Below, in pieces: positions 12,612 through 52,620 of a stretch of 64,000 bases of DNA. Under the pieces are notes generated by a model, which saw only the letters and a program-made list of their open reading frames with translations, ran no database searches and was not told where the DNA came from. The DNA comes from Atopobiaceae bacterium (lineage in GTDB: Bacteria > Actinomycetota > Coriobacteriia > Coriobacteriales > Atopobiaceae): assembly GCA_022482785.1 (NCBI GenBank), contig JAKVON010000004.1:124001-188000 (forward strand), in the 5' to 3' direction. Position 1 is the first letter of the stretch, and each line of letters begins with the position of its first letter. The position numbers and the translations under genes were made by a program.

Positions 12612-15600
12612 CTAGACCCGCCCGCTCTTCTCCGTGAGCCCGCGCAGAAGCTCGGCCTGCTCGTCTCCGATCTGGCTCCACCGAGCCTGCCAGGCCCAGT
12701 TATGCTCCGCCGTGCCGGGCATGTTCATGCGGGCGTCGTCGTCGAGGCCTATGACATCCTGCAGCGGGAAGATGACGACGTTCGAGCTGGACTGCATGAC
12801 CTTGGCGAAGAGGTCCCGCGCGAGCGCGATGTCGTCCTGGCCCGGGAAGCGCTGCTCGCACCAGCCAAGGAGCGTCTGGTTGTCGTGCGTGCCCGTGTAG
12901 GAGATCTTGTCGGGGTGCGGCTGGTAGCCGTCGCGCACGTCGCCGTCGGCGAACTGGAGGATGTCCATGCCCGGGCATCCCACGCCCGCCACGAGCGAAC
13001 GCACGGCCGGGGTGATCACGCCAAGGTCCTCGGCGATGATCGGCAGCTCGCCCAGCTCGCGCTTCGCGACCTTGAACAGGTCGAGCCCGGGACCCGGCAG
13101 CCACTCCCCTTGCGTCGCGAGCTTGCCCTGCTCGATGGAGTAGTAGTGCTCGAAGCCGAGGAAGTGGTCGAGGCGCACGTAGTCGTAGAGGGTGAAGGCC
13201 CGCGACAGGCGCTTGAGCCACCAGGCGTACCCGTCGGCGCGCATGGCGTCCCAGTTGTACGTCGGGTTGCCCCAGAGCTGGCCGTCCGGCGCGAAGCGGT
13301 CGGGCGGGGCGCCTGCCATGCGGCCGGCATAGCCCTGGTCGTCGAGACGAAACATGTCCTTCGACGCCCATACGTCAGAGGAGTCGACCGACACGTACAT
13401 CGGCATGTCGCCGATGATGCGAACGCCTCGGGATCGGGCGTAGTCGTGCAGCTCGTCCCACTGGCGGGCGAACTCGTACTGGCACCACTTGTGGAAGGCG
13501 ACGCCCTCGCGGAACTCCCACTTGCGGGCGAGCCTGGGATCGTAGTCCTTGTACTCGTCGGGCCAGGTCTGCCAGGCGCAGGCACCCTCCCTCTCGCGGA
13601 TCGCCATGAAGAGCGCGTAGGGGTCGAGCCACTCCGCGTTCTCGTCGCACCAGGTACGGAACGCGCGGTCCGCGTGGAAGCCGCGGTGGAGCTCGCGCAG
13701 GTCCTTGCCGCCCGTGTCGATGAGGCGCGTGTTGCCCGCGAACGCCGAGATGCCCGCATAGGGCGAGCCGAACTGGTCGGTCGGGTTGATGGGCAGGACC
13801 TGCCAGTAGCGCTGCTCGCACATGGCCAGCCAGTCGATGAAGCGCTTGGCGGAGTCGCCCATCGTGCCAGGCCTCCCGCCCTCGGTGGGAAGGGAGGTGA
13901 TATGGCACAGGATGCCCGAGCCGTGCTCGAGGGGCTTGGCGAGGCGGGTGCGCTTGTGGAAGTAGACGACCGCGCTGCCCAGGTTCGAGAGGGTGAGGCT
14001 CACCTTGCCGTTCTCGATGCGGAGAGGGCTGGCCACCGATGAGCTCGGAGGCGCACTCGCCACGCATCTCGATCGAGACCTCGCGCGACTCGGAGAGGTT
14101 CCTGTTCACCAGGACGGCGGCGCCGTCGCCGTCGGACCCCATGCGGTAGAAGCCGAACACGTCCTCGCCGCAGCTGATCACCTCGAAGTCGCCACCCGTG
14201 AAGAAGTCGAACGAGCGACGGAGCGAGACGCAGTTGCGGTAGATGGTCTCGCAGTCCTCGTCCTCGCGTCCCCCACGGGAAGCCGGCGCGGTTGAAGGGG
14301 TCGGAGTAGCCCTCGAGGCCCGCCTCGTCGCCGTAGTAGATGCAGGGGACGCCGGGGAGGGTCATCTGGAGCAGGGTCACGAGCCAAAGCCGACCCTTCG
14401 CCAGCCCGCGCTGCCCGTCGTTCAGGCGATACACCTCGCGCTCGTGCTCGCTCATGCCCCCCTCGGCCAAGGCGCCGCCCAGAAGGGTGAGGAGACGCGG
14501 CCTGTCGTGGCTCCCCATGAGGTTGAGTGCCTCCGCGAAGGCGTCGGGCGGGTAGTTCTCGTGAAGGCTCTCGAGCTTCTCGGCCGCGGCGGGAGCCGAG
14601 ACGGCACCCATCACGTACCCCACGACGGCATCGCGCACGGGGTAGTTCATCGCGGAGTCGAGCTCGTCTCCCAGCAGGTAGCTCCTCAGCTTGGAATAGG
14701 AGATCTTGTTCGAGGCGTCCTCCCAGACCTCGCCGAGCAGGAGGCCGTCGGGCTTGGTGTCGAGCACCGCGCGCTTGATCCCCGCGATGAAGTCGTCCGG
14801 CAGCTCGTCGGCCACGTCGAGCCTCCAGCCGCTGGCGCCGAGCGACAGCCACTTCTCGACGACGCCGCCTGGCTTCCCGAAGATGAACTTCCGGTAGGAG
14901 GGATCCTCCTCGTCGACGTCGGGCAGATCGTCGACGCCCCACCAGCTGCAGTAGGTCACGCCGTCGCCGTCTATGTTGTACCAGGAGCGATAGGGGGAGT
15001 CCTCGCTCTGGTAGGCTCCCACGGAGTCGTAGTTCCCGTACTTGTTGAAATAGATGGAGTCACAGCCCGTGTGGTTGAACACCCCGTCGAGAATGACGGA
15101 GATGCCGTTCTCGGCCGCCTTGTCGCACAGGAAGCTGAAGTCCGCCTCGTCGCCGAGCATGGGGTCTATCTTGAGGTAGTTCGCCGTGTCGTAGCGGTGG
15201 TTCGAGGCGGCCTCGAAGATGGGGTTGAGATAGAGGGCCGTGATGCCCATGTCCTTGAGCGAGGGGAGCATCTCGGCGATGCCGAGCAGCGTCCCGCCGT
15301 AGAAGTCCCAGGCACGCACGCGACCATGCTCGTCACGGGCGTAGGCGGGGGTCTCGTACCAGTCGCGGCGCAGGACGCGGTCGGGACCGTTGCGATGCTG
15401 GCCGAGAGAGCGTTCGCAGAGCTCCCTCCAGCCGGGGCCCCGACGGTAGCGATCGGGGAATATCTGGTAGACGATGCCCTTCGTGTACCAGTCGGGCTTG
15501 GTCTGACGCTCCTTGTAGACCGTGATCTGGAACGAGGCCGGCTCGGAGTCTCCCCAGGGCTGGCCCTCGCCTCCCGTCCTGCCACGCTGGGCCCCGTAGT

Positions 15601-15886
15601 GCTCGACGTGGCCGTCTCCGCGGGTGATGACGAAGCTGTACCAGATGATCTCCGGGCGCTCGGGGGTAAGCTCGCAGGTATGCCGGACGGCGCCGTTCTC
15701 GCCCTCGCCAGGGCGAGCATCCATATCGATGGTCGTCTCGCCGTCCCCGTCGACCCACGTGCGACAGCTCACCTTCGCGTCCGGGTCATCCCAGATGTCG
15801 ATGGCAAGGTGTACGGCGCCACCCAGTCGAATGGCGCCGTAGGGATTGCGATAGGCCTGCGACCTGCTGTTATGAAAGGCCCACAC
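12612..15886 (-). CDS. Bifunctional GH13 glycogen-debranching enzyme / GH77 4-alpha-glucanotransferase (two frameshifts)
   Basis: A fusion of about 1,090 residues that degrades and rearranges alpha-glucan. An N-terminal beta domain (1-130) precedes a GH13 barrel starting at YTKGIVYQIFPDRY. It has VILDGVFNHTG, nucleophile motif GWRLDVADE (about 357), acid motif LLLGEVWED (about 387) and MGSHDRPR (about 457). After the GH13 C-terminal sheet the chain runs without a stop into a MalQ domain (GSGILCHITSLPT from about 652), with FGSPYAG, the VRLDHFLGFEHYYS nucleophile region, IIAEDLG and TGTHDNQT. Frame changes near 14268 (a G run) and 14031 otherwise split it; repairing both leaves one gene, not two. 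The GTG at 15886 follows the glgA stop directly, so translation is probably coupled. Similar GlgX/4-alpha-glucanotransferase fusions are known in other anaerobes. Confidence 0.87.
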
Positions 15887-18079
15887 TTATTTGCTGCCCT
15901 TTTTCTTCGTCTTGGGCTTCGGAGCCGCCTTGGCGGCAGGCTTCGGGGCCGGCTTGGCGGCAGGCTTCGGAGCGGGCTTGGGCGCCGGCTTCGGGGCCGG
16001 CTTGGGGGCAGCCGCCTTCTTGGCAGCCTCCAGCTTGGCCTTCTCGGCGGCGGCCTTCTTCTCCGCCTCCGCCTTCGCGGCGGCGGCCTTCTTGGCTGCC
16101 TCGGCCTTCTCTGCCTCGAGCTTCGCCTTGGCCTCGGCGGCCTTCTTCTCGGCCTCGGCCTTCGCGGCGGCGGCCTTCCTCTCGGCCTCGCGCTTGGCTG
16201 CCTCCAGCTTGGCCTTCTCGGCGGCGGCCTTCTTCTCCGCCTCCGCCTTCGCGGCGGCGGCCTTCTTGGCTGCCTCGGCCTTCTCTGCCTCGAGCTTCGC
16301 CTTGGCCTCGGCGGCCTTCTTCTCGGCTTCCGCCTTCGCGGCGGCGGCCTTCTTCTCGGCTTCCGCCTTCGTGGCGGCGGCCTTCCTCTCGGCCTCGCGC
16401 TTGGCTGCCTCCAGCTTGGCCTTCTCGGCGGCGGCCTTCTTGGCTGCCTCGGCCTTCTCTGCCTCGAGCTTCGCCTTGGCCTCGGCGGCCTTCTTCTCGG
16501 CTTCCGCCTTCGCGGCAGCTGCCTTGGCCTTTTCGTCCTCGGCCTTCTTCTCGGCGACCTTGACGGCCGGCGCGGGCTCGGGCTCGGGTGCGACCTCGGA
16601 CTCGGGCTTGACCTCGATCTCCGGGTGAAGCCCCTTGTACACGTTGACGTACTGCTCGGCGGAGCGATCCCAGGAGAAGTCGGCCTCCATGGCCTGCCTC
16701 TGGATCTTCGTCCAGGCGTCGTGGTTGTTCCAGAAGACCTCTGCCGCGTAGAACAGGGTGTCCTTCATCTCGCTCGCGTTGAAGTTGGCGAAGGAGAAGC
16801 CCGTGCCCTCGCCCGTGAACTCGTTGTAGGCTGCGACCGAGTCACGCAGGCCGCCGGTCTCGCGAACGACGGGGAGCGTGCCGTAGCGCATGGCGATGAT
16901 CTGAGAGAGTCCGCACGGCTCGAACAGCGACGGCATGAGCAGCATGTCGGCGCCGGCATACATGCGATGGGAGAGGTCGTTGTCGAACGCGGCGCGGAAC
17001 CCGACCTTACCCGGGTACTTCCAGGCGAAGTAGCTGAGGGAGTCCTCGAAATTCTTGTCTCCGGTTCCGAGGATGGCCACCTGGATGGTGCGGCCGACGA
17101 TCTCGTCCATGGCATAGTTGACCAGGTCGAGGCCCTTTTGCTTGGTGAGGCGGCCAATCATGACCACCAGCGGCCGCAGCGGGTCGACGTCGAGGCCGAA
17201 CTCCTTCTGGAGGGCCTCCTTGCACTTGGCCTTGTTCGCGAAATCCTTGGCCGAGAAGTTCGCGGCGATCTTCTTGTCGGCGGCAGGGTCCCAGAGCTTG
17301 TAGTCGATGCCGTTGAGGATGCCGGAGAGGACGTCGGAGCGACGCCGGAAGACGTCGTCGAGGTGCTCGCCGAAGAAGGGGTCCTGGATCTCCTGGGCAT
17401 AGCTCGGGCTCACCGTGGTGAGGGCATCCGAGTAGCAGGCCCCGCCCTTCATGAAGTTGATGGCATCCGGCCCGCAGGTGAGCTGGCTCGCCGCTGCCGG
17501 GATGTGGGCCATGCCCAGGATGTCGTTGAGCACGAACTCCGAGAACTGGCCCTGGAACTTGAGGTTATGAACCGTGAGGACGGTCTTCACGTTGTCGTAG
17601 AGGGGAAGGCCGTTGTAGAACTCACGGAGGAACACGGGCGACAGGGCGCTATGCCAGTCGTTCACGTGCAGGATGTCCGGAGTGAAGTCAGGCAGGTACT
17701 GGAGGGCCTCGGTGACGGCCTTCGAGAAGAACGCGAAGCGCTCGCCGTCGTCGAAGTAGCCATAGGGATGGTCGCGGTTGAAGTAGTCCTGGTTGTCGAC
17801 GAACTCGTACTTGACCCCGTCGAGCTCCAGCTCGTCGATGCCGCACCAGACGTTTCGCCAGGAGAGGGGCACATAGAAGTCGGCGATGTGCGTGACCTTG
17901 CTCGTGTACTCCTCGGGGATGCACCCGTACTTGGGAAGGATGACGCGGACGTCGCAGCCCTCACGTTGGAGCGCCGCAGGGAGCGACCCGGCGACATCCC
18001 CGAGACCGCCCGTCTTCACGAAGGGGACCGCCTCGCTCGCTGCGAAGACCACGCCCATCTTCCTGGTTTGATCGCTCAT
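15887..18079 (-). CDS. glgA: Glycogen synthase GlgA with long Ala/Lys/Glu/Pro tail
   Basis: GT5 glycogen synthase, moving glucose from ADP-glucose to glycogen. Residues 1-487 are a normal enzyme: KTGGLGDVAGSLP (ADP-glucose loop), DILHVNDWHSAL, TVHNLKFQGQF, IGRLTKQKG and SLFEPCGLSQIIAMRYG (catalytic Glu region). Residues 488-730 are a tail not needed by the family: a Pro/Glu linker, about 170 residues of TolA-like AEAEKKAAEAKAKLEAEKA helix in three imperfect copies, and a purely basic KPAPKPA end closing with KTKKKGSK. I choose the ATG at 18079 because AAGGTGG lies five bases upstream. An in-frame ATG at 18100 has no ribosome site. It follows glgD after 121 bases containing a hairpin and is coupled to the downstream debranching fusion. 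Confidence 0.95.
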   Translation of the reverse strand: MSDQTRKMGVVFAASEAVPFVKTGGLGDVAGSLPAALQREGCDVRVILPKYGCIPEEYTSKVTHIADFYVPLSWRNVWCGIDELELDGVKYEFVDNQDYFNRDHPYGYFDDGERFAFFSKAVTEALQYLPDFTPDILHVNDWHSALSPVFLREFYNGLPLYDNVKTVLTVHNLKFQGQFSEFVLNDILGMAHIPAAASQLTCGPDAINFMKGGACYSDALTTVSPSYAQEIQDPFFGEHLDDVFRRRSDVLSGILNGIDYKLWDPAADKKIAANFSAKDFANKAKCKEALQKEFGLDVDPLRPLVVMIGRLTKQKGLDLVNYAMDEIVGRTIQVAILGTGDKNFEDSLSYFAWKYPGKVGFRAAFDNDLSHRMYAGADMLLMPSLFEPCGLSQIIAMRYGTLPVVRETGGLRDSVAAYNEFTGEGTGFSFANFNASEMKDTLFYAAEVFWNNHDAWTKIQRQAMEADFSWDRSAEQYVNVYKGLHPEIEVKPESEVAPEPEPAPAVKVAEKKAEDEKAKAAAAKAEAEKKAAEAKAKLEAEKAEAAKKAAAEKAKLEAAKREAERKAAATKAEAEKKAAAAKAEAEKKAAEAKAKLEAEKAEAAKKAAAAKAEAEKKAAAEKAKLEAAKREAERKAAAAKAEAEKKAAEAKAKLEAEKAEAAKKAAAAKAEAEKKAAAEKAKLEAAKKAAAPKPAPKPAPKPAPKPAAKPAPKPAAKAAPKPKTKKKGSK
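16026..16575 (-). repeat. Tandem coding repeats in the GlgA tail
   Basis: The segment encoding the helical part of the GlgA tail repeats itself. The marker GCCTCCAGCTTGG (plus strand) recurs at 16026, 16200 and 16407, so the units are 174 and 207 bases (58 and 69 codons). They differ mainly by an inserted AKAEAEKKAAA-type block. All spacings are multiples of three. Such arrays change length by slippage or unequal recombination, so strain-to-strain length variation is likely. Confidence 0.9.
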
Positions 18080-18140
18080 GTGTTCCACCTTGTCACTCAT
18101 GCGAATACTCGCGATGCCCGTGTTGCTTCTCGAAAGAACG

Positions 18141-18200: not shown

Positions 18201-19301
18201 CTAGTGGCGCTCGGGGCTCTTCTCCTTGACCAGGACCGCCTCGGGGGTGCCCCTGAGCTCGGTGCCGGCAGGAATGAAGTTGTTGCGGTCGACGATCGCG
18301 TTCTCGATGATCGCGCCGGACTCGATGACGACGCCCTGGCCGATCAGCGAGTTGCGAACCGTCGCGCCACGCTCGACGCGGACGCCGCGACCGAGGATGG
18401 AGCCCGTGATCGAGCCGGAGATCCTCGACCCGGCAGAGACGAGCGAGTTGCGGACGCGGGAGCCCGTCTCGTACTTCGCGGGGGGCGTGTCGTGCGCCTT
18501 GGTCATGACGGGACGGCCCTCGGGGAACAGCTCCTCCGCGATCTTGGGGTCGAGGAGCTCCATGCTGTGACGGAAGTAGCCCTGCGTGGTGAAGATGGAG
18601 GCGGCGTAGCCATTGAACTGGTAGTCCATGACATTGACCTTGTCGAAGTCCTGAGCGAGGGCCTCGAACAGGTCGAGGTGGCTCACGGCCGCGTACCAGT
18701 CGAGCGCCTTCAGGAGCACCTCGCGCTTGATGATGAACGTGTCGAGGAACTCGTCCTCGCCATACTTGGCGCCGCGATGCATGCCCTTGACGCGGCCGTC
18801 CTCGATCCAGGCCGACGAGAGGTTGGGATCGTCGCAGGTGGCCTTGCGCGTGACGATGGTGATGTCGGCGCCGGTGGAGGCATGGCAGTCGATGAGCGGG
18901 TCGTAGTCCATGTTGAAGATCACGTTGGAGGAGCTGACGATCACGTAGGGCTCCGTGGCGCGGTCGAGGAACAGGCGGTTGAAGTCGATGTCGCGGAGCA
19001 GGAAGCGCGAGCCCTCGCGAGTCGACCCGAACGCCGATCCGGGGAGGATGAACAGGCCCCCGTTCTTGCGGTCGAGCGACCAGTCCTTGCCCGAGCCGAT
19101 GTGGTCGATGATCGAGCGGTAGTTGTAGGGCATGACGACGCCCACGGTGCGCACCCCGCAGTTGACCAGGTTGGACATCGGGAAGTCGATGAGGCGGTAG
19201 CGGCCTGCGTAGGGCAGGGACGCCGCCGGCCGCACGTCGGTGAGCATGCTCGAGTTCTGAGTGGAGTAGTTAGCGGTGATGATGCCGATTGCCTGTGCCA
19301 T
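18201..19301 (-). CDS. glgD: Glucose-1-phosphate adenylyltransferase subunit GlgD
   Basis: GlgD is the non-catalytic, modulatory partner of GlgC in the ADP-glucose pyrophosphorylase of Gram-positive bacteria. The 366-residue protein has a degenerate nucleotidyltransferase fold (YAGRYRLIDFPMSNLVNCGV, DYDPLIDCHASTGADIT). It lacks the canonical N-terminal GGxGxRL loop that GlgC keeps, which is the hallmark of GlgD. The C-terminal left-handed beta-helix shows hexapeptide repeats (NSLVSAGSRISGSI, NSLIGQGVVIESGAIIENA). It begins two bases after the glgC stop, with GGGAGGAG lying across that stop, so the two subunits are coupled for balanced synthesis. Confidence 0.94.
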   Translation of the reverse strand: MAQAIGIITANYSTQNSSMLTDVRPAASLPYAGRYRLIDFPMSNLVNCGVRTVGVVMPYNYRSIIDHIGSGKDWSLDRKNGGLFILPGSAFGSTREGSRFLLRDIDFNRLFLDRATEPYVIVSSSNVIFNMDYDPLIDCHASTGADITIVTRKATCDDPNLSSAWIEDGRVKGMHRGAKYGEDEFLDTFIIKREVLLKALDWYAAVSHLDLFEALAQDFDKVNVMDYQFNGYAASIFTTQGYFRHSMELLDPKIAEELFPEGRPVMTKAHDTPPAKYETGSRVRNSLVSAGSRISGSITGSILGRGVRVERGATVRNSLIGQGVVIESGAIIENAIVDRNNFIPAGTELRGTPEAVLVKEKSPERH

Positions 19302-19303
19302 CG

Positions 19304-20452
19304 TTACTCCTCCCCCTTTCCGACTACCACGTCGTCGCCGATGACGGCGGTGTCCTTCGTGACGTCGACGCTGCCGAGCGTGACGTTCTCCTCGACGGTC
19401 GAGTTCTCGCCGAGGATGGCGCGAACCACGCGGGCGCCTTCCTTGACCTTGGCACCCGGAAGCAGGATCGAGTCGACGACCGTCGCGCGCGGGCCGACGT
19501 AGGAGTCGGTGGACAGGACGGAGTGCTTCACCGAGCCGAACACGCGGCAGCCGTTGCCGACCAGGCTGTCGTCGATGTCGCCCTCGGGCCCGACGTAGTG
19601 AGGCGGACGCGTGCTGGCGTTCGACATGATCGGGAAGTCCTTCGCGTACAGGTCGAACTCGGGCTTCTCGCCCAGCAGCTCCATGCTCGTCTCGTGGAAC
19701 GACGCGATGGTGCCGACGTCGCGCCAGAAGCCGTTGAACTCGAAGGTGTAGAGGCGACGGCCCTCGGAGAGGAGCTTGGGGATGATGTTGTTGCCGAAGT
19801 CGTGCTCGCTCTGGGGATCGTTGTGATCCTCCTTGAGCTTCTCGATCAGCAGGTCGGTGTTAAAAATGTAGATGCCCATGGAGGCGAGGTTCGAATCGGG
19901 CTTCTTGGGCTTCTCGGTGAACTTGAGGATCTTCTCGTCGTCATCCTGCGTGATGATGCCGAAGCGGGAGGCCTCCTCCCAGGGCACGGGCATGACCGAG
20001 ACGGTGAGGTCGGCGTTGTGCCTGATGTGGTTCTCGAGCATCTTGTGGTAGTCCATGCGGTAGAGCTGGTCGCCCGAGAGGATGAGGACGTAGTCGGGCT
20101 TATAGCCCTCGATGTAGCCGATGTTCTGGTAGACGGCGTCGGCCGTGCCCTCGTACCAGGCACCGCCCGTCTCGGTGGCATAGGGCGGCAGGATCGAGAC
20201 GCCCGCGCCGCGCTCGTCGAGGTTCCAGGCCTCGCCGGTGCCGATGTAGGAGTGAAGAACGTAGGGACGATACTGGGTGAGCACGCCCACCGTGTCGATC
20301 CCCGAATTCGCGCAGTTCGAGAGGGCGAAGTCGATGATGCGGTATTTTCCTCCGAACGAGACCGCTGGCTTGGCGATGTTCCTCGTCAAAGCCCCCAGTC
20401 TGCTTCCTTGCCCGCCGGCAAGGAGCATTGCGATGCACTTCTCTTTGCTCAT
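19304..20452 (-). CDS. glgC: Glucose-1-phosphate adenylyltransferase GlgC
   Basis: The catalytic subunit of ADP-glucose pyrophosphorylase: ATP plus glucose-1-phosphate to ADP-glucose, the committed step to glycogen. The N-terminus has [14 protein letters not shown] (nucleotide loop), [19 protein letters not shown] and [22 protein letters not shown] holds the metal-binding Asp, and [10 protein letters not shown] and [13 protein letters not shown] bind glucose-1-phosphate. A C-terminal beta-helix ends in [13 protein letters not shown]. At 382 residues it has the normal length for the Gram-positive type. It is followed two bases later by glgD and preceded 72 bases earlier by glgP. Confidence 0.97.
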
Positions 20453-20524: not shown

Positions 20525-23026
20525 CTACTCTGCGTGCCAGATTTCGCGGGCGTACTCCTCGATCGTGCGGTCGCTCGAGAAGAAACCCGACTTTGCAGTA
20601 TTGTGAAGCGCCTTGCTGAACCACTCCTGCCTCTTGCGGTAGTCATGGTTGAGCTCCTCGAAAGCCTCCACATACGGCTTGAAATCCCTGAGAATGAACT
20701 CCTGGTCGTTATTGGTCATGAGCTCGTCATGGATATTCTCAAAGTTGCCGGAGAGTCGCGCAAGGGTGCCATCGGTGAGCTCGTCGACAATCCGGCCGGT
20801 GCGGTCCCGATCGGAGTTGTACTCGTTCCAGGCCCAGTACTGGCCCGAGGCGCGGAGCGCCTCGACGTCCTCGACGCGCATGCCGAAGATCTTGATGTTC
20901 TCCTCGCCCACCAGCTTGGCGATCTCGACGTTGGCGCCGTCGTAGGTGCCGAGCGTAATCGCGCCGTTGAGCATGAGCTTCATGTTCGACGTGCCGGAGG
21001 CCTCCTTGCCGGCGGTCGAGATCTGCTCGGAGATGTCGGCGGCGGAGTAGATGTACTGGGCGTTCGAGACCGCGAAGTTGGGGACGAACGCGACGCGGAT
21101 CTTGTCGTTCACCCTCTTGTCGTTGTTGATCACGTCGGCCGTGGAGTTGATGAGGCGGATGACCTCCTTGGCGAAGAAGTAGCTCTGGGCCGCCTTGCCC
21201 GCGAAGATGAAGCTCGTGGGCTCGATGTCGAGGCTCGGGTCGTCGCAGAGGCGGTTGTAGAGGTCGAGCACCTTGAAGACGTTCAGCAGCTGGCGCTTGT
21301 AGGAATGGAAGCGCTTGATCTGCGCGTCATAGATCGTGTTCGGGTCGAGGACGACGCCGGAGGCCTTCTCGACGTAGGCGGCGAGGCGCTTCTTGTTCTC
21401 GAGGCGCGACGCCTCCATGTCCTCGAGGAAGGAGGCGTCCTTCTCGAAGGGGACGAGCTTCTCGAACTCGTTGGAGTCGGTCATCCACCTGTCGCCGATG
21501 GCGGACGTGATGAGCTTGGAGTAGGAGGGGTTCGCCTCGCCGAGGAAGCGACGGTGCGAGATGCCGTTGGTCTTGTTGTTGAACTTCCCCGGATCGATCT
21601 CGTAGTAGTCCTTGAAGACCTCGTGCTCGAGGATGTTGGTGTGGAGGTCGGACACGCCGTTCACGGAATGGCTGCAGATGATGGAGAGGTTCGCCATGCG
21701 CACCTGGCCGTCCCAGAGGATGGCGGTGTTCCTGAGCATGTCCTGCCAGTTGTCGTACCTGTCGCGGGGGAAGCTCTCGCGGTAGCGGCGGTCTATCTCC
21801 TCGACGAAGGTGTAGACGCGGGGAAGCAGGGTGCGGAAGGTGTTGATGGGCCACTTCTCGAGCGCCTCGGGCATGATCGTGTGGTTGGTGAACGAGACGG
21901 AGCCCTTGACCACGGCCCAGGCCGCGTCCCAGTCGAGCCCCTCGTCGTCGATGAGGATGCGCATGAGCTCGGGGCCGCAGAGGGCGGGGTGGGTGTCGTT
22001 GGTGTGGATGGCGACGTGGTCGGCGAAGTGGGCCCAGTCGTTGCCATGCTCCTTGTGGTAGGTGCGGATGATGGTCTGGAGGCCGGCTGAGACGAAGAGG
22101 TACTCCTGCTTGAGGCGCAGGAGCCTGCCGTGCTCGCCCGCGTCGTTGGGGTAGAGGATCGTCGAGATGGCCTCGACGTCGGAGCGGAACTTCATGGCCT
22201 TGGCGTAGTCGCCCGAGTTGAAGGCGTCGAGGTCGAAGTCCTCGCGCGCGGGCTCCGCGGACCAGAGGCGCAGCTTGTTGACCGTCTTGCCGTCATAGCC
22301 GACGACCGGCACGTCATAGGGGACCGCGAGGACCTCGTCGGCGTTGTCCCAGGTGAACCAGAACTTGCCGTTCTCCTCGTGTCGGACCTCGTCGCCGTTG
22401 AAGCGCACGACGACGGCGGACTCGGGCTTGCGGGCCTCGAAGGGATATCCGTGCGCGAGCCAGTTGTCGGTCTCCTCGACCTGGCAGCCATCCTTGATCT
22501 CCTGGCGGAACAGGCCGTAGCGGTAGCGCATGCCGTTGCCGTACCCGGCGATTCCGAGCGTCGCCATGGAGTCGAGGAAGCACGCGGCCAGACGCCCGAG
22601 GCCGCCGTTGCCCAGCCCGGCATCCGCCTCCTGGTCGCAAAGCGTCGCGAGGTCGCTGCCGAGCTCGTCGAGGCCCTCGGCGACGAGCTCGCGCGCGCCG
22701 TAGTCCATGAGGTAGTTGTCAAGGAGCTTGCCGATGAGGAACTCGAGGCAGAAGTAGTAGACCTTCTTCTGGTCGCTCTTGACGGCGCGACGCGTCGTCG
22801 CGGACTCGATGGAACGGGACTTGACGGCGATGAGCTTGGCGAGCATCGAGTAGCGGTCGAGGTCGTCGCACTCCTCGAAGGTCTTGCCGAGCTCGCTCTC
22901 GAAGATTGCCCTGTACTGGTCGATGAAGTCCTGCTTGTCCTTGAACAGCTGCATACCGTTTTCCTGTTTTGTCGACGGGACCGGTGCCACGACGGCCTCG
23001 GTCTTCTCCTTCTTGAATAGAGACAT
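20525..23026 (-). CDS. glgP: Glycogen phosphorylase
   Basis: GT35 phosphorylase that releases glucose-1-phosphate from glycogen ends using pyridoxal phosphate. The 833 residues include ALGNGG-type DAGLGNGGLGRLAACFLDS, HTNDTHPALCGPELMR, KTNGISHRRF, QIKRFHSYKRQLLN, and the cofactor lysine in EASGTSNMKLMLNG. The N-terminal 25 residues (MSLFKKEKTEAVVAP) are an extra leader; the conserved part starts near MQLFKDKQDF. It lies 15 bases after glgB, so synthesis and breakdown enzymes share one transcript, implying control at the level of enzyme activity or substrate rather than by separate promoters. Confidence 0.97.
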   Translation of the reverse strand: MSLFKKEKTEAVVAPVPSTKQENGMQLFKDKQDFIDQYRAIFESELGKTFEECDDLDRYSMLAKLIAVKSRSIESATTRRAVKSDQKKVYYFCLEFLIGKLLDNYLMDYGARELVAEGLDELGSDLATLCDQEADAGLGNGGLGRLAACFLDSMATLGIAGYGNGMRYRYGLFRQEIKDGCQVEETDNWLAHGYPFEARKPESAVVVRFNGDEVRHEENGKFWFTWDNADEVLAVPYDVPVVGYDGKTVNKLRLWSAEPAREDFDLDAFNSGDYAKAMKFRSDVEAISTILYPNDAGEHGRLLRLKQEYLFVSAGLQTIIRTYHKEHGNDWAHFADHVAIHTNDTHPALCGPELMRILIDDEGLDWDAAWAVVKGSVSFTNHTIMPEALEKWPINTFRTLLPRVYTFVEEIDRRYRESFPRDRYDNWQDMLRNTAILWDGQVRMANLSIICSHSVNGVSDLHTNILEHEVFKDYYEIDPGKFNNKTNGISHRRFLGEANPSYSKLITSAIGDRWMTDSNEFEKLVPFEKDASFLEDMEASRLENKKRLAAYVEKASGVVLDPNTIYDAQIKRFHSYKRQLLNVFKVLDLYNRLCDDPSLDIEPTSFIFAGKAAQSYFFAKEVIRLINSTADVINNDKRVNDKIRVAFVPNFAVSNAQYIYSAADISEQISTAGKEASGTSNMKLMLNGAITLGTYDGANVEIAKLVGEENIKIFGMRVEDVEALRASGQYWAWNEYNSDRDRTGRIVDELTDGTLARLSGNFENIHDELMTNNDQEFILRDFKPYVEAFEELNHDYRKRQEWFSKALHNTAKSGFFSSDRTIEEYAREIWHAE

Positions 23027-23041
23027 GGATTCCTTTCGGTC

Positions 23042-25215
23042 CTATTTGGCTGCTTGCCCCTTCTTGGGCGCGACTTTCCTCGTGCCTGCGGGCTTTGCCG
23101 CAGACGGCTTGGCAGCCGCTGCCTTCTTGGCGGTCGCGGCGGGCTTCGTCGCGGTCGCGGGCTTCTTGGCCGCGGGCGTAGCCTTCCTTGCCGCAGGGGA
23201 TGTCTTCTTGGTGGCCGGCGCCGCCTTCTTTGCCGCAGGGGCCGCCTTCTTGGCAGCCGCGGCCTTGGAGGCGGCGGGCTTCTTGGCGGTTGCCCTCTTC
23301 GGGGCCGCCTTCGGCTTGGGGAGGTCGCCCGTGCGCTTGAACACCTGGCCGCCGATGGGGGCTATGCGCACGACGATCGAGTTGTCGCAGCCGTTCCAGG
23401 CGACCTTCTCGCTCTTCGCGGCGACGGTGTTGAGGACGCCGGAGCCGCCGAACTCCTCCGCGTCGCTGTTGAAGACCTCTTTCCACACGCCCTCGCGCGG
23501 GACGCCGATCCTGAACTCCTCGTAGGTCGCCGGGTCGAAGTTGATGACGACGAGCAGGTCGTCATCCGGCTCGTCGCCATGGCGCAGGAAGCTCACGATC
23601 GACTGGTCGGAGTCGTCCGCGTCAATCCACTCGAAGCCGTCCCAGGAGTAGCCCTCCTGCCAGAGGGCGGGTGACTTCTTGTAGAAGTCGTTGAGCCTCT
23701 CGATGAAGTGCTGCTGATGGGCATGAGTCTCGTACTCGTCGGTGAGGAACCACTGGATTCCCCTCGTAGTAGCGCCACTCGATGAACTGGGCGATCTCGT
23801 TGCCCATGAAGTTGAGCTTGGCGCCAGGGTGCGTGATCTGGTAGAAGGCCAGCGCGCGCATGCCCGCGAACTGACGCCAGTAGTCTCCCGGCATGCGGCC
23901 GATGAGCGAGCACTTCCCGTGCACGACCTCGTCGTGGCTGAGCGGCAGGATGAAGTTCTCGTTGAAGGCGTACATGATGGAGAACGTGATGAGCGTGTGG
24001 TTGCCCGGCCGCCAGGGGAAGTCCGTCTGGCAGTAGTGCAGGGTGTCGTTCATCCAGCCCATGTCCCACTTGTAGTGGAATCCGAGGCCGCCGTCCTTGA
24101 GAGGATAGGTGACGAGCGGCCAGGCCGTCGACTCCTCCGCCATCATCATGACGTCGGGGTGGTACTCCCCCACGCGCGCGTTGCACTCCTGGATGAAGTC
24201 GATGGAGACGAAGTCCTCCTCGGTGCCCTTCTCGTTGAACTTCTTCTTGGACGGGTCGTCCACGCCGAAGTTGAGGTAGAGCATGCTGGTGACGCCATCC
24301 ATGCGGATGCCATCGGCGTGGTACTGCTCGAGCCAGTAGAGGACGTTGGAGATGAGGAAGCTGCGCACCTCGCCGCGACCGAGGTCGAACTTGAAGGTAC
24401 CCCAGTCGGGATGCTCCTCCTTCTCGTAGAGCATGTGGCCGTTGAAGTGGACGAGGCCGTGCTCGTCACGGCAGAAGCCGCCGGGCACCCAGTCGAGGAT
24501 GACGCCGATGCCCGCCTTGTGGAACGAGTCGACGAGGTGCATGAACTGCTTGGGCGTGCCGTAGCGGGAGGTCGGCGCGAAGTATCCGGTGACCTGGTAG
24601 CCCCACGAGCCGTCGAAGGGGTGCTCCATGACGGGCAGCAGCTCGACGTGGGTATAGCCCATCTTCTTGACGTAGGCGACCATGCGCTTGGACATCTCGT
24701 CATAGGTGAGGTAGTCGCCGTTCTCCTCGCGGTCCCAGGAGCCGAGGTGCACCTCGTAGATGTTGAGCGGCTTCTTCATGTGGTTGGTCGCGCGGCGCTC
24801 GTCCATCCAGGCCTTGTCCTTCCAGGCATAGCCCGAGATGTCGGTGGCGCAGGAGGCGGTTCCCGGAGGGCACTCCGCCTCGAAGGCATACGGGTCGGCC
24901 TTGAACATGCGGCCCGCGTCCTTGGTGTCGATGACGTACTTGTAGAGGTCGCCCGCCTTGACGTTGGGGACGAAGCCCTCCCACACGCCGCCGGTCTCGG
25001 AGGGGGCCAGGGGATACTGGTCTGCGTCCCACTCGTTGAAGGTGCCCGTCACGTGGACGGCCTCGACGTCTGGGGCCCAGACGGCGAAGCGGAAAGCCCT
25101 TCTTGCCGCCCTCCGTCGCGGGGTGGGCACCCATCTTGTCGTAGCTTCGGTACCAGTTGCCCTTCGCGAGCAGATAGAGGTCATCGCTGGTAAGAGTGCG
25201 CTTGTCGTCTGCCAT
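23042..25215 (-). CDS. glgB: 1,4-alpha-glucan branching enzyme GlgB with basic tail (two frameshifts)
   Basis: GH13 branching enzyme of glycogen. The start at 25215 (MADDKRTLTSDDLYLLAKGN) follows GGGAG by eight bases. A CBM48 domain (VWAPDVEAVHVTGTFNEW) leads into the barrel with HVELLPVMEHPFDGSWGYQ, DWVPGGF, DGIRMDGVTSMLYL (nucleophile), MMAEESTAWP (acid) and LPLSHDEVVHGK. Frame changes occur near 25105 (TTTCC, one extra base) and near 23757 (GGGGAAT, one extra base). Both joins give conserved sequence. After the normal C-terminal sheet, about 92 residues form a Lys/Ala/Pro tail from PKPKAAPKRATAKKPAAS to QAAK, with 24 Lys, 3 Arg and no acidic residue. It is the first gene of the glycogen operon and is divergent from nth across 230 bases. 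Confidence 0.93.
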
Positions 25216-25445
25216 TCTTCGACGCTCCCTTGTCACACCGGCCTGAAAGGATCGGAAACGAGCATGCTGCGGTCGATCGCCACGCGAAGACGATCGTTCA
25301 CAGTGTATCTCTGATGTTCCCGAAAACTGACACCTGTTCGACGGACGCGCGACACTTCCGCCCTCTGTGCCGAATCGCCTTCTGAGCGTACCATGCCAAG
25401 TGGGAATTGCGAAATGTCGTGTCACCAGCAAGGAGGTTCGAAACC

Positions 25446-26138
25446 ATGCCGAGGGAGTCCAAGGCACGCAGGCGCGAGCGTGCGGTCGAGATGTGCCGCA
25501 GGATGGACGAGCGCTATCCCGAAGCGGAGTGCGCGCTTCACTACGGGACTCCGTTTGAGCTGGTAATCGCCGTGCTGCTCTCGGCTCAGACCACCGACGC
25601 CGCCGTCAACAAGGTCACGCCCGAGCTGTTCGACCGTTGGCCGAATCCTGCGGAGATGGCTGCGGCGAACCAGGCCGACGTGGCCGAGGTGATCCGCTCG
25701 ATCGGCTTCTGGAGGACGAAGTCGGCACATTGCGTGGAGTGCGCCCAGAAGATTATGGCCGACTACGCCGGCGAGGTCCCTCGCACGATGGACGAGCTCA
25801 AGACCCTGCCGGGCGTGGGAAGGAAGACGGCGAACATCGTCCTCAACAACGCCTTCGGCATAGTCGAGGGAATCGCCGTCGACACGCACGTCTTCAGGAT
25901 CGCGACGCGGATGGGCCTCACGAGGGCGGACACCCCGCTCAAGGCCGAGCAGGACCTGCTGGACGTCATCCCCAGGGAGCTCTGGGGACCCGTGAACCAC
26001 CAGCTGGTGCTGTTCGGCCGCGAGGTGTGCGACGCGCGCCGGCCGCTCTGCGGGGAGTGCCCGCTCGCGGACATCTGTCCGAGCGCAGGCAAGCCCCCCG
26101 AGAGCACGAGGCGCAAGGCGGCCGCGAGGCGCGGCTAG
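25446..26138 (+). CDS. nth: Endonuclease III
   Basis: A base-excision repair glycosylase/AP lyase for oxidised pyrimidines. The 230 residues show LLSAQTTDAAVNKVTPELF, the helix-hairpin-helix LPGVGRKTANIVLN with the Schiff-base Lys, the catalytic Asp in AVDTHVFRIATRMGL, and the iron-sulfur loop C-x6-C-x2-C-x5-C (CDARRPLCGECPLADIC). AAGGAGG nine bases before the ATG at 25446 fixes this start over a longer upstream frame. Its stop overlaps the convergent metY stop in CTAG, so the two transcripts must overlap. It stands alone on the plus strand, and no clear promoter was found in the 230-base divergent gap. Confidence 0.96.
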   Translation: MPRESKARRRERAVEMCRRMDERYPEAECALHYGTPFELVIAVLLSAQTTDAAVNKVTPELFDRWPNPAEMAAANQADVAEVIRSIGFWRTKSAHCVECAQKIMADYAGEVPRTMDELKTLPGVGRKTANIVLNNAFGIVEGIAVDTHVFRIATRMGLTRADTPLKAEQDLLDVIPRELWGPVNHQLVLFGREVCDARRPLCGECPLADICPSAGKPPESTRRKAAARRG

Positions 26139-27449
26139 ATTCGGTCGAGGGCCTGGTCGAGGTCGGCGATGATGTCGTCGACGCTCTCGATTCCCACGGA
26201 GAGGCGCACGAGGTCCTCGCTGAGGTGCGCCGCCTCGAGCTGCTCGGCCGTGAGCTGGGAATGCGTGGTGGACGCGGGATGGATGATGAGGGTCTTGGCA
26301 TCCCCCACGTTGGCCAGGTGCGTGGCGAGGCGCACGTTGTCCACGAGGTCGAGGCCGCTCTGCCGGCCTCCCCTTGACGCCGAAGACGACCACGCCGCCG
26401 AAGCCATGCCGCAGGATGCGCGCCGCGACGTCATGGGTTGGGTGGCTCTCGAGGCCCGGATAGCTCACCCAGGCGATCTTCGGATGGCTCTCGAGGTGCC
26501 TGGCGACGGCCAGCGCGCTGTCGGACTGACGCTGGACGCGCAGCGAGAGAGTCTCTATCCCGAGGCCGATCTGCTGGGCGTTGAACGGGGAGAGGGTGGG
26601 CCCGAAGTCGCGGAGCTGCTGTGCCAGCACGCGGGTGCCGAACGCCGCGCTGCCGAGGGCATCCCAGAAGACGAGCCCGTGATAGTCGGGGTCCGGCTCG
26701 GTGAGGGTGGGGAACTTGCCCTCGACCTTGCCCCAGTCGAAGTTGCCTCCGTCTATGACGGCGCCTCCCACCGAGGTCCCATGTCCGCCGATCCACTTCG
26801 TGAGGGACTCGATCACCACGGCGGCGCCGTCCTCGGCCGGACGGTAGAGGTAGGGCGTCGCGAAGGTGTTGTCCACGAAGACCGGCACGTCGACCGTGCT
26901 GGCCGCGGCGACGAGGGCGGGCACGTCGGAGACGTCGAGCCGAGGGTTGCCGATGGTCTCGGCATACCAGAGCTTGGTGTTCTCGTCGGTTGCGGAGAGG
27001 AACCCCTCGACGTCGTTGTTCTCCACGAAGCTCGTGTGGATGCCGAGGCGCTCGAAGGTGTGGAGGAAGATGTTCCACGTCCCGCCGTAGAGGGAGTTCG
27101 AGGCCACGATGTTGTCGCCGGCCCGCGCGATGTTGAGGATCGCGAGGATCTCGGCCGCATGGCCCGAGGCGACCGCGACGGCCGCCGAGCCATGCTCGAG
27201 CGCGGCGACGCGCGCGGCGACGGAGTCGGTCGTGGTGTTGGTCAGGCGGCCGTAGACGTTGCCAGGCACCTGGAGCGCGAACTTTCCGGCGGCATCGGCC
27301 GCGTCCTTGAACTCGAAGGCGGCGGACTGGTAGATGGGAAGGGACGAGGACCCGGTGACGGGATCGGGGGCAAGCCCCGCGTGCACCTGAAGGGTGTCGA
27401 AGTGGGCTTCGGGGTCGTTGGCGAAGCTGGGATCGAGTTGGAAGGCCAT
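26135..27449 (-). CDS. metY: O-acetylhomoserine sulfhydrylase (one frameshift)
   Basis: A PLP enzyme of the Cys/Met family that makes homocysteine from O-acetylhomoserine and sulfide. FDTLQVHAGLAPDP, NVYGRLTNTTTD, VASGHAAEILAI, NPRLDVSD, the PLP Lys in SLTKWIGGHGTSVGG, and HPASTTHSQLTAEQ are all present. The frame breaks near 26368 between VVVFGVKG and GRQSGLDLVDNV, one base off in AAGGGGAGG; the repaired protein is about 437 residues. The start at 27449 has AAGGAGG nine bases ahead. It has its own strong promoter and a leader of about 200 bases with stable stems, so methionine or SAM control is likely at RNA level. MetF/MetH near the right edge complete the pathway. Confidence 0.93.
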
Positions 27450-50610: not shown

Positions 50611-52620
50611 ATGGGAATCCGCAACCGCAGGGCACGGAAGCACGCGCATACCCACATCGTCGGCTTCGGCCTCGCCGGAGTCATCGGGTTCGTCGCCCTT
50701 CTCGTCATCGCCCTCGTGTTCTCGGTCACGTCGCTCGTGAACTCGTGGCTCACCGACCTCCCCGACTACACGTCCGCCGACGCGTACCTCGTCGCGGAGC
50801 CCACCGAGGTCTACGACTCGAGCAACAACCTCATCGCCGAGTACTACCTCCAGAACCGCAAGTCCATTACCATCGACCAGGTCTCCACCTACGTGCTCAA
50901 GGGTACCGTCGACACCGAGGACGTGCGCTTCTACCAGCACAACGGCGTCGACCCCCAGGGCATCATCCGCGCCATGGTCGCGCAGCTCGGCGGCAACTCC
51001 GAGGGCGCGTCGACCATCACCCAGCAGCTCGTGCGCAACACCATCCTCTCCGACGAGCAGTTCGACAAGACGCTCAAGCGCAAGGTGCGCGAGGCCTACA
51101 TCGCGATCCAGATGGAGAAGACCTACTCCAAGGACCAGATCCTGATGATGTACCTCAACACCATCTACTACGGGCATTCGGCCTATGGCATCGAGGCGGC
51201 CTCCGTCACCTACTTCAACAAGGACGCGAAGGACCTCACGCTCTCGGAGGCGGCCACGCTCATCGGCCTGCCCAACTCCCCGTCGCTCTATGACCCCACG
51301 GTCAACCCGGACGCCTGCAAGCAGAGGCGCAACGTCGTCCTCGACCGCATGCTCTCGGCAGGGGACATCACCCAGGAGGAGCACGACGCGGCGCAGGCGG
51401 AGGACATCGAGCTCGACACCGGCAGCTCGGTGATGAGCTCCAAGGGGACGTACCCCTACTTCACCGACTACGTGAAGCAGCTCCTCCTCGAGGACTTCGA
51501 CCAGAAGACCGTCTTCCAGGGCGGCCTCAAGGTCTACACCACGCTCGACCCCACCGACCAGCAGGCGGCCGAGGACGCCTGCAACAAGCAGCTCGAGTCG
51601 ATCGGCGACGACTCCCTCGAGGCGGCCCTCGTGGCGGTCGACCCCTCCACCGGCTACATCAAGGCCATGGTCGGCGGGCGCGACTATGACGCCGACCAGT
51701 ACAACCTCGCCTCCCAGGCACGACGGCAGCCGGGCTCCGGCTTCAAGGCGTTCACCCTCGCGGCGGCGATCTCTGCTGGGATGAGCCCGCAGACCTACAT
51801 CAACTGCAACTCGCCCATCCAGGTCACCTCGTCCTGGAAGGTTCAGAACCACTACAACACGAGCTATGGGACCATCACGCTCGCCCGCGCGACCGAGCTC
51901 TCCTCGAACACCGGCTACGCCCAGGTGGCGAACGCCATCGGCGCCGACTCCATCGTCTCGACCGCGAAGGCCATGGGCATCAAGGTCGACCTGCCGAACT
52001 ACGCCTCGATCACCCTGGGGACCATCGGGGTGCCGCCCCTCCAGATGGCCGAGGGCTACGCGACGCTCGCGGCTGGGGGAGTCCACCGCGACGCGATCGC
52101 CATCGACAAGATCCTCGACCGCAACGGCAACTCGGTCTACCAGCACACCGATGCCCCCACGCAGGCCATCTCGGCCGAGGCCGCCTACGCGGAGACCCAG
52201 GTGCTCGAAGGGGTCGTCAAGAACGGCACCGCCACCGTGGTCAACAGCAACGCGAAGATCAACCAGCCCATCGCCGGCAAGACGGGAACGACGGAGTACG
52301 CGGGCGACCTCTGGTTCAACGGCTATACGCCCCAGATCGCCGTCTCGGTCTGGGTGGGGCACCGCGAGTCGGGGGAGAAGACCGTCTACGTGCACGGCTC
52401 GACGGGCTCGCCGGCCACGACCTCCTGCCCGATCTTCGCGAGCTACGTGAACGCCACGCTGTCGAACGTCTCGCGCCAGGAGTTCCAGACGGCCGCCTCG
52501 CCCGACTACAAGTCGAGCAGCTCCTGGACCTTCTCCAAGAGCAGCGGCAGCTCGTCGTCGAGCGGCAAGAGCTACAGCAGCTCGGACTCCAGCAACTACG
52601 ACGCGGGAGCGAGCGAGTAA
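50611..52620 (+). CDS. Class A penicillin-binding protein
   Basis: A 669-residue bifunctional peptidoglycan synthase. A basic cytoplasmic start (MGIRNRRARKHAHTH) leads into one membrane anchor (about residues 18-42). The GT51 glycosyltransferase domain shows EDVRFYQHNGVDPQGIIRA with the catalytic Glu, GASTITQQLVRN and KRKVREAYIAIQMEK. The transpeptidase domain has the SxxK Ser in PGSGFKAFTLAAAI, the SxN motif SSNTGYAQ and KTGTTEYAGDLWF. The last 50 residues are a Ser-rich tail (SSSWTFSKSSGSSSSSGKSY), common in this group. AGGAGG six bases ahead fixes the ATG. All catalytic residues are present. Confidence 0.95.
   Translation: MGIRNRRARKHAHTHIVGFGLAGVIGFVALLVIALVFSVTSLVNSWLTDLPDYTSADAYLVAEPTEVYDSSNNLIAEYYLQNRKSITIDQVSTYVLKGTVDTEDVRFYQHNGVDPQGIIRAMVAQLGGNSEGASTITQQLVRNTILSDEQFDKTLKRKVREAYIAIQMEKTYSKDQILMMYLNTIYYGHSAYGIEAASVTYFNKDAKDLTLSEAATLIGLPNSPSLYDPTVNPDACKQRRNVVLDRMLSAGDITQEEHDAAQAEDIELDTGSSVMSSKGTYPYFTDYVKQLLLEDFDQKTVFQGGLKVYTTLDPTDQQAAEDACNKQLESIGDDSLEAALVAVDPSTGYIKAMVGGRDYDADQYNLASQARRQPGSGFKAFTLAAAISAGMSPQTYINCNSPIQVTSSWKVQNHYNTSYGTITLARATELSSNTGYAQVANAIGADSIVSTAKAMGIKVDLPNYASITLGTIGVPPLQMAEGYATLAAGGVHRDAIAIDKILDRNGNSVYQHTDAPTQAISAEAAYAETQVLEGVVKNGTATVVNSNAKINQPIAGKTGTTEYAGDLWFNGYTPQIAVSVWVGHRESGEKTVYVHGSTGSPATTSCPIFASYVNATLSNVSRQEFQTAASPDYKSSSSWTFSKSSGSSSSSGKSYSSSDSSNYDAGASE

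Follow-up and report, generated by a model that had tools for sequence, protein, structure and literature searches.

The window analyzed here, a 64,000-nucleotide stretch of an Atopobiaceae genome, carries a glg operon on the minus strand in the order glgB, glgP, glgC, glgD, glgA and a pullulanase-malQ fusion (Table 1). The glgB frame ends at position 23042, 15 bp ahead of the glgP start codon. At the distal end, the overlapping ORFs for a pullulanase-type enzyme and MalQ correspond to one intact ORF of 1102 amino acids in the complete genome G019, a correspondence that points to a fused debranching/glucanotransferase gene frameshifted in the window's assembly. GlgB and GlgA both continue well beyond their catalytic cores; in the relatives, GlgP, GlgC and GlgD have short extensions at most at nearly all loci.

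Table 1. Features of the glg operon in the window, with the basis of each assignment.
Feature	Position	Strand	Basis
GlgB basic tail, 96 aa plus stop	23042..23332	-	Translation and residue counts; predicted disordered
GlgB catalytic core: CBM48, GH13 alpha-amylase and C-terminal beta domain	23333..25215	-	Pfam and solved-structure matches; intact in relatives
Frameshift, extra G in a GGGG run between ...WRYYEG and IQWF...	23760..23763	-	Sequence; relatives' frame intact
GlgP, glycogen phosphorylase, tailless	20525..23026	-	Pfam Phosphorylase; relatives' GlgP stops at the core
GlgC, tailless	19304..20452	-	Pfam NTP_transferase; relatives
GlgD-like protein, tailless	18201..19301	-	Pfam; relatives
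GlgA catalytic core	16619..18100	-	Pfam Glyco_transf_5 and Glycos_transf_1
GlgA tail, predicted helical K/E/A stalk, residues 518-695	16016..16549	-	TRF tandem repeat; AlphaFold2
GlgA tail, disordered K/A/P tip	15887..16015	-	Sequence; pLDDT below 50
Pullulanase-type enzyme fused to MalQ, tailless	12612..15886	-	Two overlapping ORFs, frameshifted near 14000-14063

The core of GlgB matched the Pfam families CBM_48 (1e-17) and Alpha-amylase (9e-17), and its best matches among solved structures were GlgB structures (top match 5gqz, E 5e-142). The motifs RMDGV, AEES and SHDEV were found in the window and were invariant across an alignment of 22 relatives; their Asp, Glu and Asp residues we take to be catalytic, following established knowledge of GH13 enzymes. 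With a CBM48 and GH13 domain and the conserved Asp/Glu/Asp motifs, the protein can be assigned as GlgB from its sequence. It resembles typical GlgB in its CBM48, its alpha-amylase domain and its operon with glgP, glgC, glgD and glgA, but the Bacillota relatives lack a basic tail.

Direct translation of the last 92 residues gave 24 Lys, 3 Arg, 37 Ala, 13 Pro and no Asp or Glu, reproducing exactly the basic and acidic counts of the first-pass annotation, and the tail has a net charge of +26. In an AlphaFold2 model of the intact G019 orthologue, the tail was disordered (pLDDT about 30), with no secondary structure past the last beta strand. The possibility that the tail is an artefact of assembly or annotation and no part of GlgB arose from the window itself, where two breaks interrupt glgB upstream of the tail: the extra G listed in Table 1 and a second one-base frameshift near 25105. 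Dozens of independent genomes, some of them complete, encode core and tail in a single open frame; the tail thus belongs to GlgB, and an artefact can be ruled out.

Because the source genome is a draft (85.5% complete) whose neighbouring genes show similar breaks, the frameshifts in the window glgB look like assembly errors. One-base frameshifts in window genes lie at 23760-23763, about 25105, about 14000-14063 and 25422-27449, and suggest an error-prone draft assembly as a possible reason for the low completeness. In the same genome, a second GlgB paralogue (L239, G000:C1:78500-83000) seems to be split over several frames.

The distribution of the tail was surveyed by reading the operon from about 80 genomes covering most of the family's 35 genera. 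Operon GlgB was readable in 75 family genomes, and in 70 of these its C-terminal end had a net charge of at least +8; among tails of 40 residues or more, the medians were 83 residues for length and +20 for net charge. Nearly all Collinsella also carried a basic GlgB tail, as did related genera in the same separate family of the order. Neither GlgB nor GlgA had one in 22 Bacillota relatives, whose cores are as well conserved and whose GlgB ends at most about 30 residues beyond the core. By this distribution the tail is a clade trait of the Coriobacteriales. It is not essential to GlgB, since its length varies from 23 to 272 residues and it has nearly been lost in a few small genomes (G002, G017, G022 and G077). 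These four also lack PPK1, and three of them measure 1.5-1.7 Mb; a reduction in genome or in lifestyle may lie behind both the tail loss and the absence of PPK1.

Between close relatives, the tails shifted in length and sequence and kept their net charge. The pN/pS ratio was 0.39 for the tail and 0.05 for the core, in comparisons whose pairs are not independent and whose two rates are both inflated by the aligning of low-complexity sequence. Lysine made up 24% of the tails and arginine 4.7%, a ratio of five to one, against 2.5% and 6.75% in the proteome. The lysine fraction showed no correlation with genomic GC over the range 46 to 68%, and GC-driven low complexity was rejected as the source of the tail. 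Particular words were enriched over shuffled tails, KPAA about 7-fold (93 occurrences against 13, in 38 of 65 tails), PAKK 4-fold and AAKK 3-fold, and the DNA encoding the GlgB tail used mixed synonymous codons. The sequences thus show the tail to be under selection at the protein level.

The first-pass annotation had held two such tails in one operon to be unlikely by chance, and a census bore this out. Under a threshold of 11 or more Lys and a net charge of +9 or more within 50 residues, GlgB and GlgA were the only qualifying ORFs in the window, and only four qualified among 1379 non-overlapping ORFs in 1.6 Mb (70%) of G019: TopA, GlgA, GlgB and one doubtful ORF whose stretch lies near its N-terminus. 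Within the family, no basic tail was present on any of the second-lineage GlgB copies checked (L239-L249) or on any of nine GlgA paralogues. Basic tails as a generic habit of the proteome are ruled out by the census and these tailless paralogues.

One genome, G060, departs from the common arrangement, its glg operon beginning with glgP and lacking glgB. The only GlgB found there is 60% identical to a tailless second-lineage GlgB of genus g9 and 40% identical to the operon type, and bears its own K/A/S/T tail of about 72 residues. The sequence relationships indicate a separate gain of a tail on a non-orthologous GlgB, in a genome that is 89% complete and may hold an operon-type copy elsewhere.

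The tail of GlgA is of a different kind. The earlier description of both enzymes as ending in basic low-complexity tails holds insofar as both tails are long and net basic, but that of GlgA consists mostly of Lys, Glu and Ala. Of its 243 residues past the core, 64 are Lys and 42 are Glu, for a net charge of +25; the first 200 or so are a K/E/A repeat with a net charge of only about +10, and the Lys/Ala/Pro composition is confined to the final 45 or so (net +15). AlphaFold2 predicted helices at residues 518-586 and 599-695 (pLDDT mostly 70-85) followed by the disordered tip. The DNA of the stalk is a tandem repeat (TRF period 87 bp, 5.5 copies), the copy number of which may vary between strains. 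Since GlgA is modelled as a helical stalk with a tip and GlgB as disordered throughout, the two tails would share a basic tip and not an overall design.

Nor did the tails generally occur together. In the family, 61 genomes had a tailed GlgB with a tailless GlgA, two had both tails (besides the window genome and G060) and six had neither. In the Collinsella clade, 15 genomes had both, one (L053) combined a GlgA tail with a GlgB tail that was only weak, and a further one had the GlgB tail only, its GlgA being cut off by a contig end. On a GlgA tree whose labelled rows included two Bacillota with long, non-basic tails, the tail label required six changes, four of them forced by well-supported branches, so that there were at least four gains or losses of a GlgA tail. 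Together with the co-occurrence counts, these changes make GlgA tails a later and repeated addition in some lineages that already had the GlgB tail. Other kinds of GlgA extension exist, as two Bacillota relatives (L056 and L062) have Pro/Glu-rich tails of 202 and 90 residues that are not net basic.

Several known proteins carry tails comparable to that of GlgB. AlgP of Pseudomonas aeruginosa is a histone H1-like protein with KPAA repeats that acts in the spacing of polyphosphate granules (PMC9239181); like the GlgB tail, its C-terminal domain is long, disordered, rich in Lys, Ala and Pro and enriched in KPAA words, and AlgP too is tied to a storage polymer. It differs in that it is a protein in its own right, is not an enzyme and acts on polyphosphate, whereas the GlgB tail is fused to a branching enzyme and does not need polyphosphate. 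PhaF, with an AlgP-like tail (PMC9239181), and PhaM (PMC3556143) are granule-bound proteins that also bind DNA; unlike GlgB, a glycogen enzyme without a phasin domain, they are phasin-like and sit on PHA/PHB polyester granules. The tails of AlgP and PhaF that resemble that of GlgB bind DNA (PMC9239181). The mycobacterial HU protein HupB likewise has a Lys/Ala/Pro tail, of PAKK/KAAK type, and this tail is indispensable for nucleoid association (PMC5676037); it is joined to a DNA-binding HU body, which GlgB lacks. Actinobacterial TopA, from the same phylum and also present in G019, is an enzyme with a Lys-rich C-terminal tail, the lysine repeats of which give processivity (PMC7398561), although its substrate is DNA and that of GlgB is glucan.

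In composition, words and predicted disorder, the GlgB tail corresponds to the Lys/Ala/Pro C-terminal domain with KPAA-type repeats found in AlgP and PhaF. A Pfam scan of 442 core residues returned only CBM_48 and Alpha-amylase, with no phasin-like or AlgP-type N-terminal domain. We infer that GlgB works in the manner of the H1-like granule tethers while standing outside those protein families, as it lacks their domains.

By analogy with these systems, our preferred reading, held tentatively and at somewhat less than even confidence, is that the tail is a disordered polyanion-binding anchor that works like the tails of AlgP, PhaF and HupB but on a glycogen enzyme, with nucleoid DNA as its most likely ligand. 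Under this model the operon GlgB of Coriobacteriales would have gained a Lys-rich anchor at its C-terminus. The core and CBM48 would bind and build glycogen as the tail, at about +20 net, bound polyanions non-specifically; DNA is the most likely of these, preferred by analogy over RNA and acidic partner enzymes, both of which are possible ligands. Such binding would hold glycogen synthesis and the growing particles at the nucleoid, and the association would limit clumping of particles and share the store at division. A second tail would have been acquired by GlgA itself in a few lineages, the window version being a basic tip on a helical stalk. The sequences establish that the GlgB tail exists, where it occurs, that it is specific, constrained and repeatedly gained, and that it is predicted to be disordered; polyanion binding, DNA as the main ligand and a role in positioning glycogen are inferred. 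A bolder proposal, which we doubt more than we believe, is that GlgB is itself a nucleoid tether through which glycogen is placed and segregated together with the chromosome; it would then be the counterpart of PhaM, PhaF and AlgP for glycogen.

Were it true, glycogen would join PHA and polyphosphate among the storage polymers whose granules are tethered by lysine-rich tails, and here the tether would be the enzyme itself. A selected, clade-wide tail of H1 type, carried by GlgB in genera that are abundant in gut and rumen (Collinsella, Olsenella), is a direct candidate for the way in which a bacterium could organise its glycogen. A 2024 review of prokaryotic alpha-glucan enzymes (PMC11046441) reports no clustering protein for the glycogen particles of bacteria, nor does the nucleoid come up in its searchable text, and to that extent it speaks against the anchor model. 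A search of open-licence papers returned no earlier description of a tail on GlgB or GlgA.

The first-pass annotation had seen in the two tails a shared design, by which GlgA and GlgB would be recruited together to one scaffold of a storage-body organising system. An organising role in a storage body is plausible, because the tail is real, not due to chance, selected as protein and limited to the glycogen enzymes and TopA; the paired form is unsupported. Both tails do occur in the window genome, G019, G020, G060 and almost all Collinsella, yet GlgA is tailless in 61 of the 63 sampled family genomes with a tailed GlgB, so that the lack of correlation across genomes that the annotation itself had named as speaking against pairing is largely what was found. 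With GlgA tails also gained or lost at least four times and built differently, pairing as a general rule is ruled out, and a scaffold on which both tails gather both enzymes in one body is highly unlikely. Scarcely more probable is polyphosphate as the common partner, by which the tail would bind or coacervate with polyphosphate and link glycogen to its granules as for AlgP. The AlgP precedent, in which KPAA tails act on such granules (PMC9239181), favours it, as does the presence of both kinases in the window genome, one of the 107 (PPK1) and 77 (PPK2) positive genomes among 140 of the family. But polyphosphate is no requirement, because strong tails (net +24 to +37) persist in seven near-complete genomes with no match to PPK1 or PPK2 (G003, G038, G039, G043, G044, G046 and G051); nor did tail charge differ between genomes with and without PPK1 (Mann-Whitney p = 0.32).

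An electrostatic metabolon, in which the tail would bind acidic surfaces of GlgP, GlgC and the GlgA and GlgB cores and cluster the pathway without nucleic acid, has more in its favour and is still rather unlikely. The Glg enzymes share one operon, and the net charges of the window cores (GlgB -37, GlgP -36, GlgA -22, GlgC -18) oppose that of the tail. Bacterial proteins are mostly acidic, however, so acidic partner cores confer no specificity; moreover, the K-rich words of KPAA and PAKK type resemble known nucleic-acid-binding tails, and G060 has a tail on a GlgB outside the operon. That the tail is a neutral or solubilizing expansion of GC-rich low-complexity sequence with no specific partner would accommodate its strong variation in length and sequence and the DNA-level repeats in the tail of GlgA. 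We consider it improbable given the pN/pS of the tail, its conserved charge, its preference for Lys over Arg and its independence of GC, together with the mixed synonymous codons, the lack of such tails on paralogues and in the remainder of the G019 proteome sampled, and the separate gain in G060.

When the low-complexity tail was searched against the genomes, almost nothing was returned besides GlgB and one short ORF. This ORF of 149 residues (L231:1525-1974, minus strand; near 52472 of G000:C4) is TatA-like by eye and has a K/A/P tail resembling the GlgB one. Within genus g30 the GlgB tails (L138-L144) end in a conserved terminal motif, RSAAAKKAAATRKANAAKK, in contrast to the free-form tails elsewhere; the motif may be a defined binding element.
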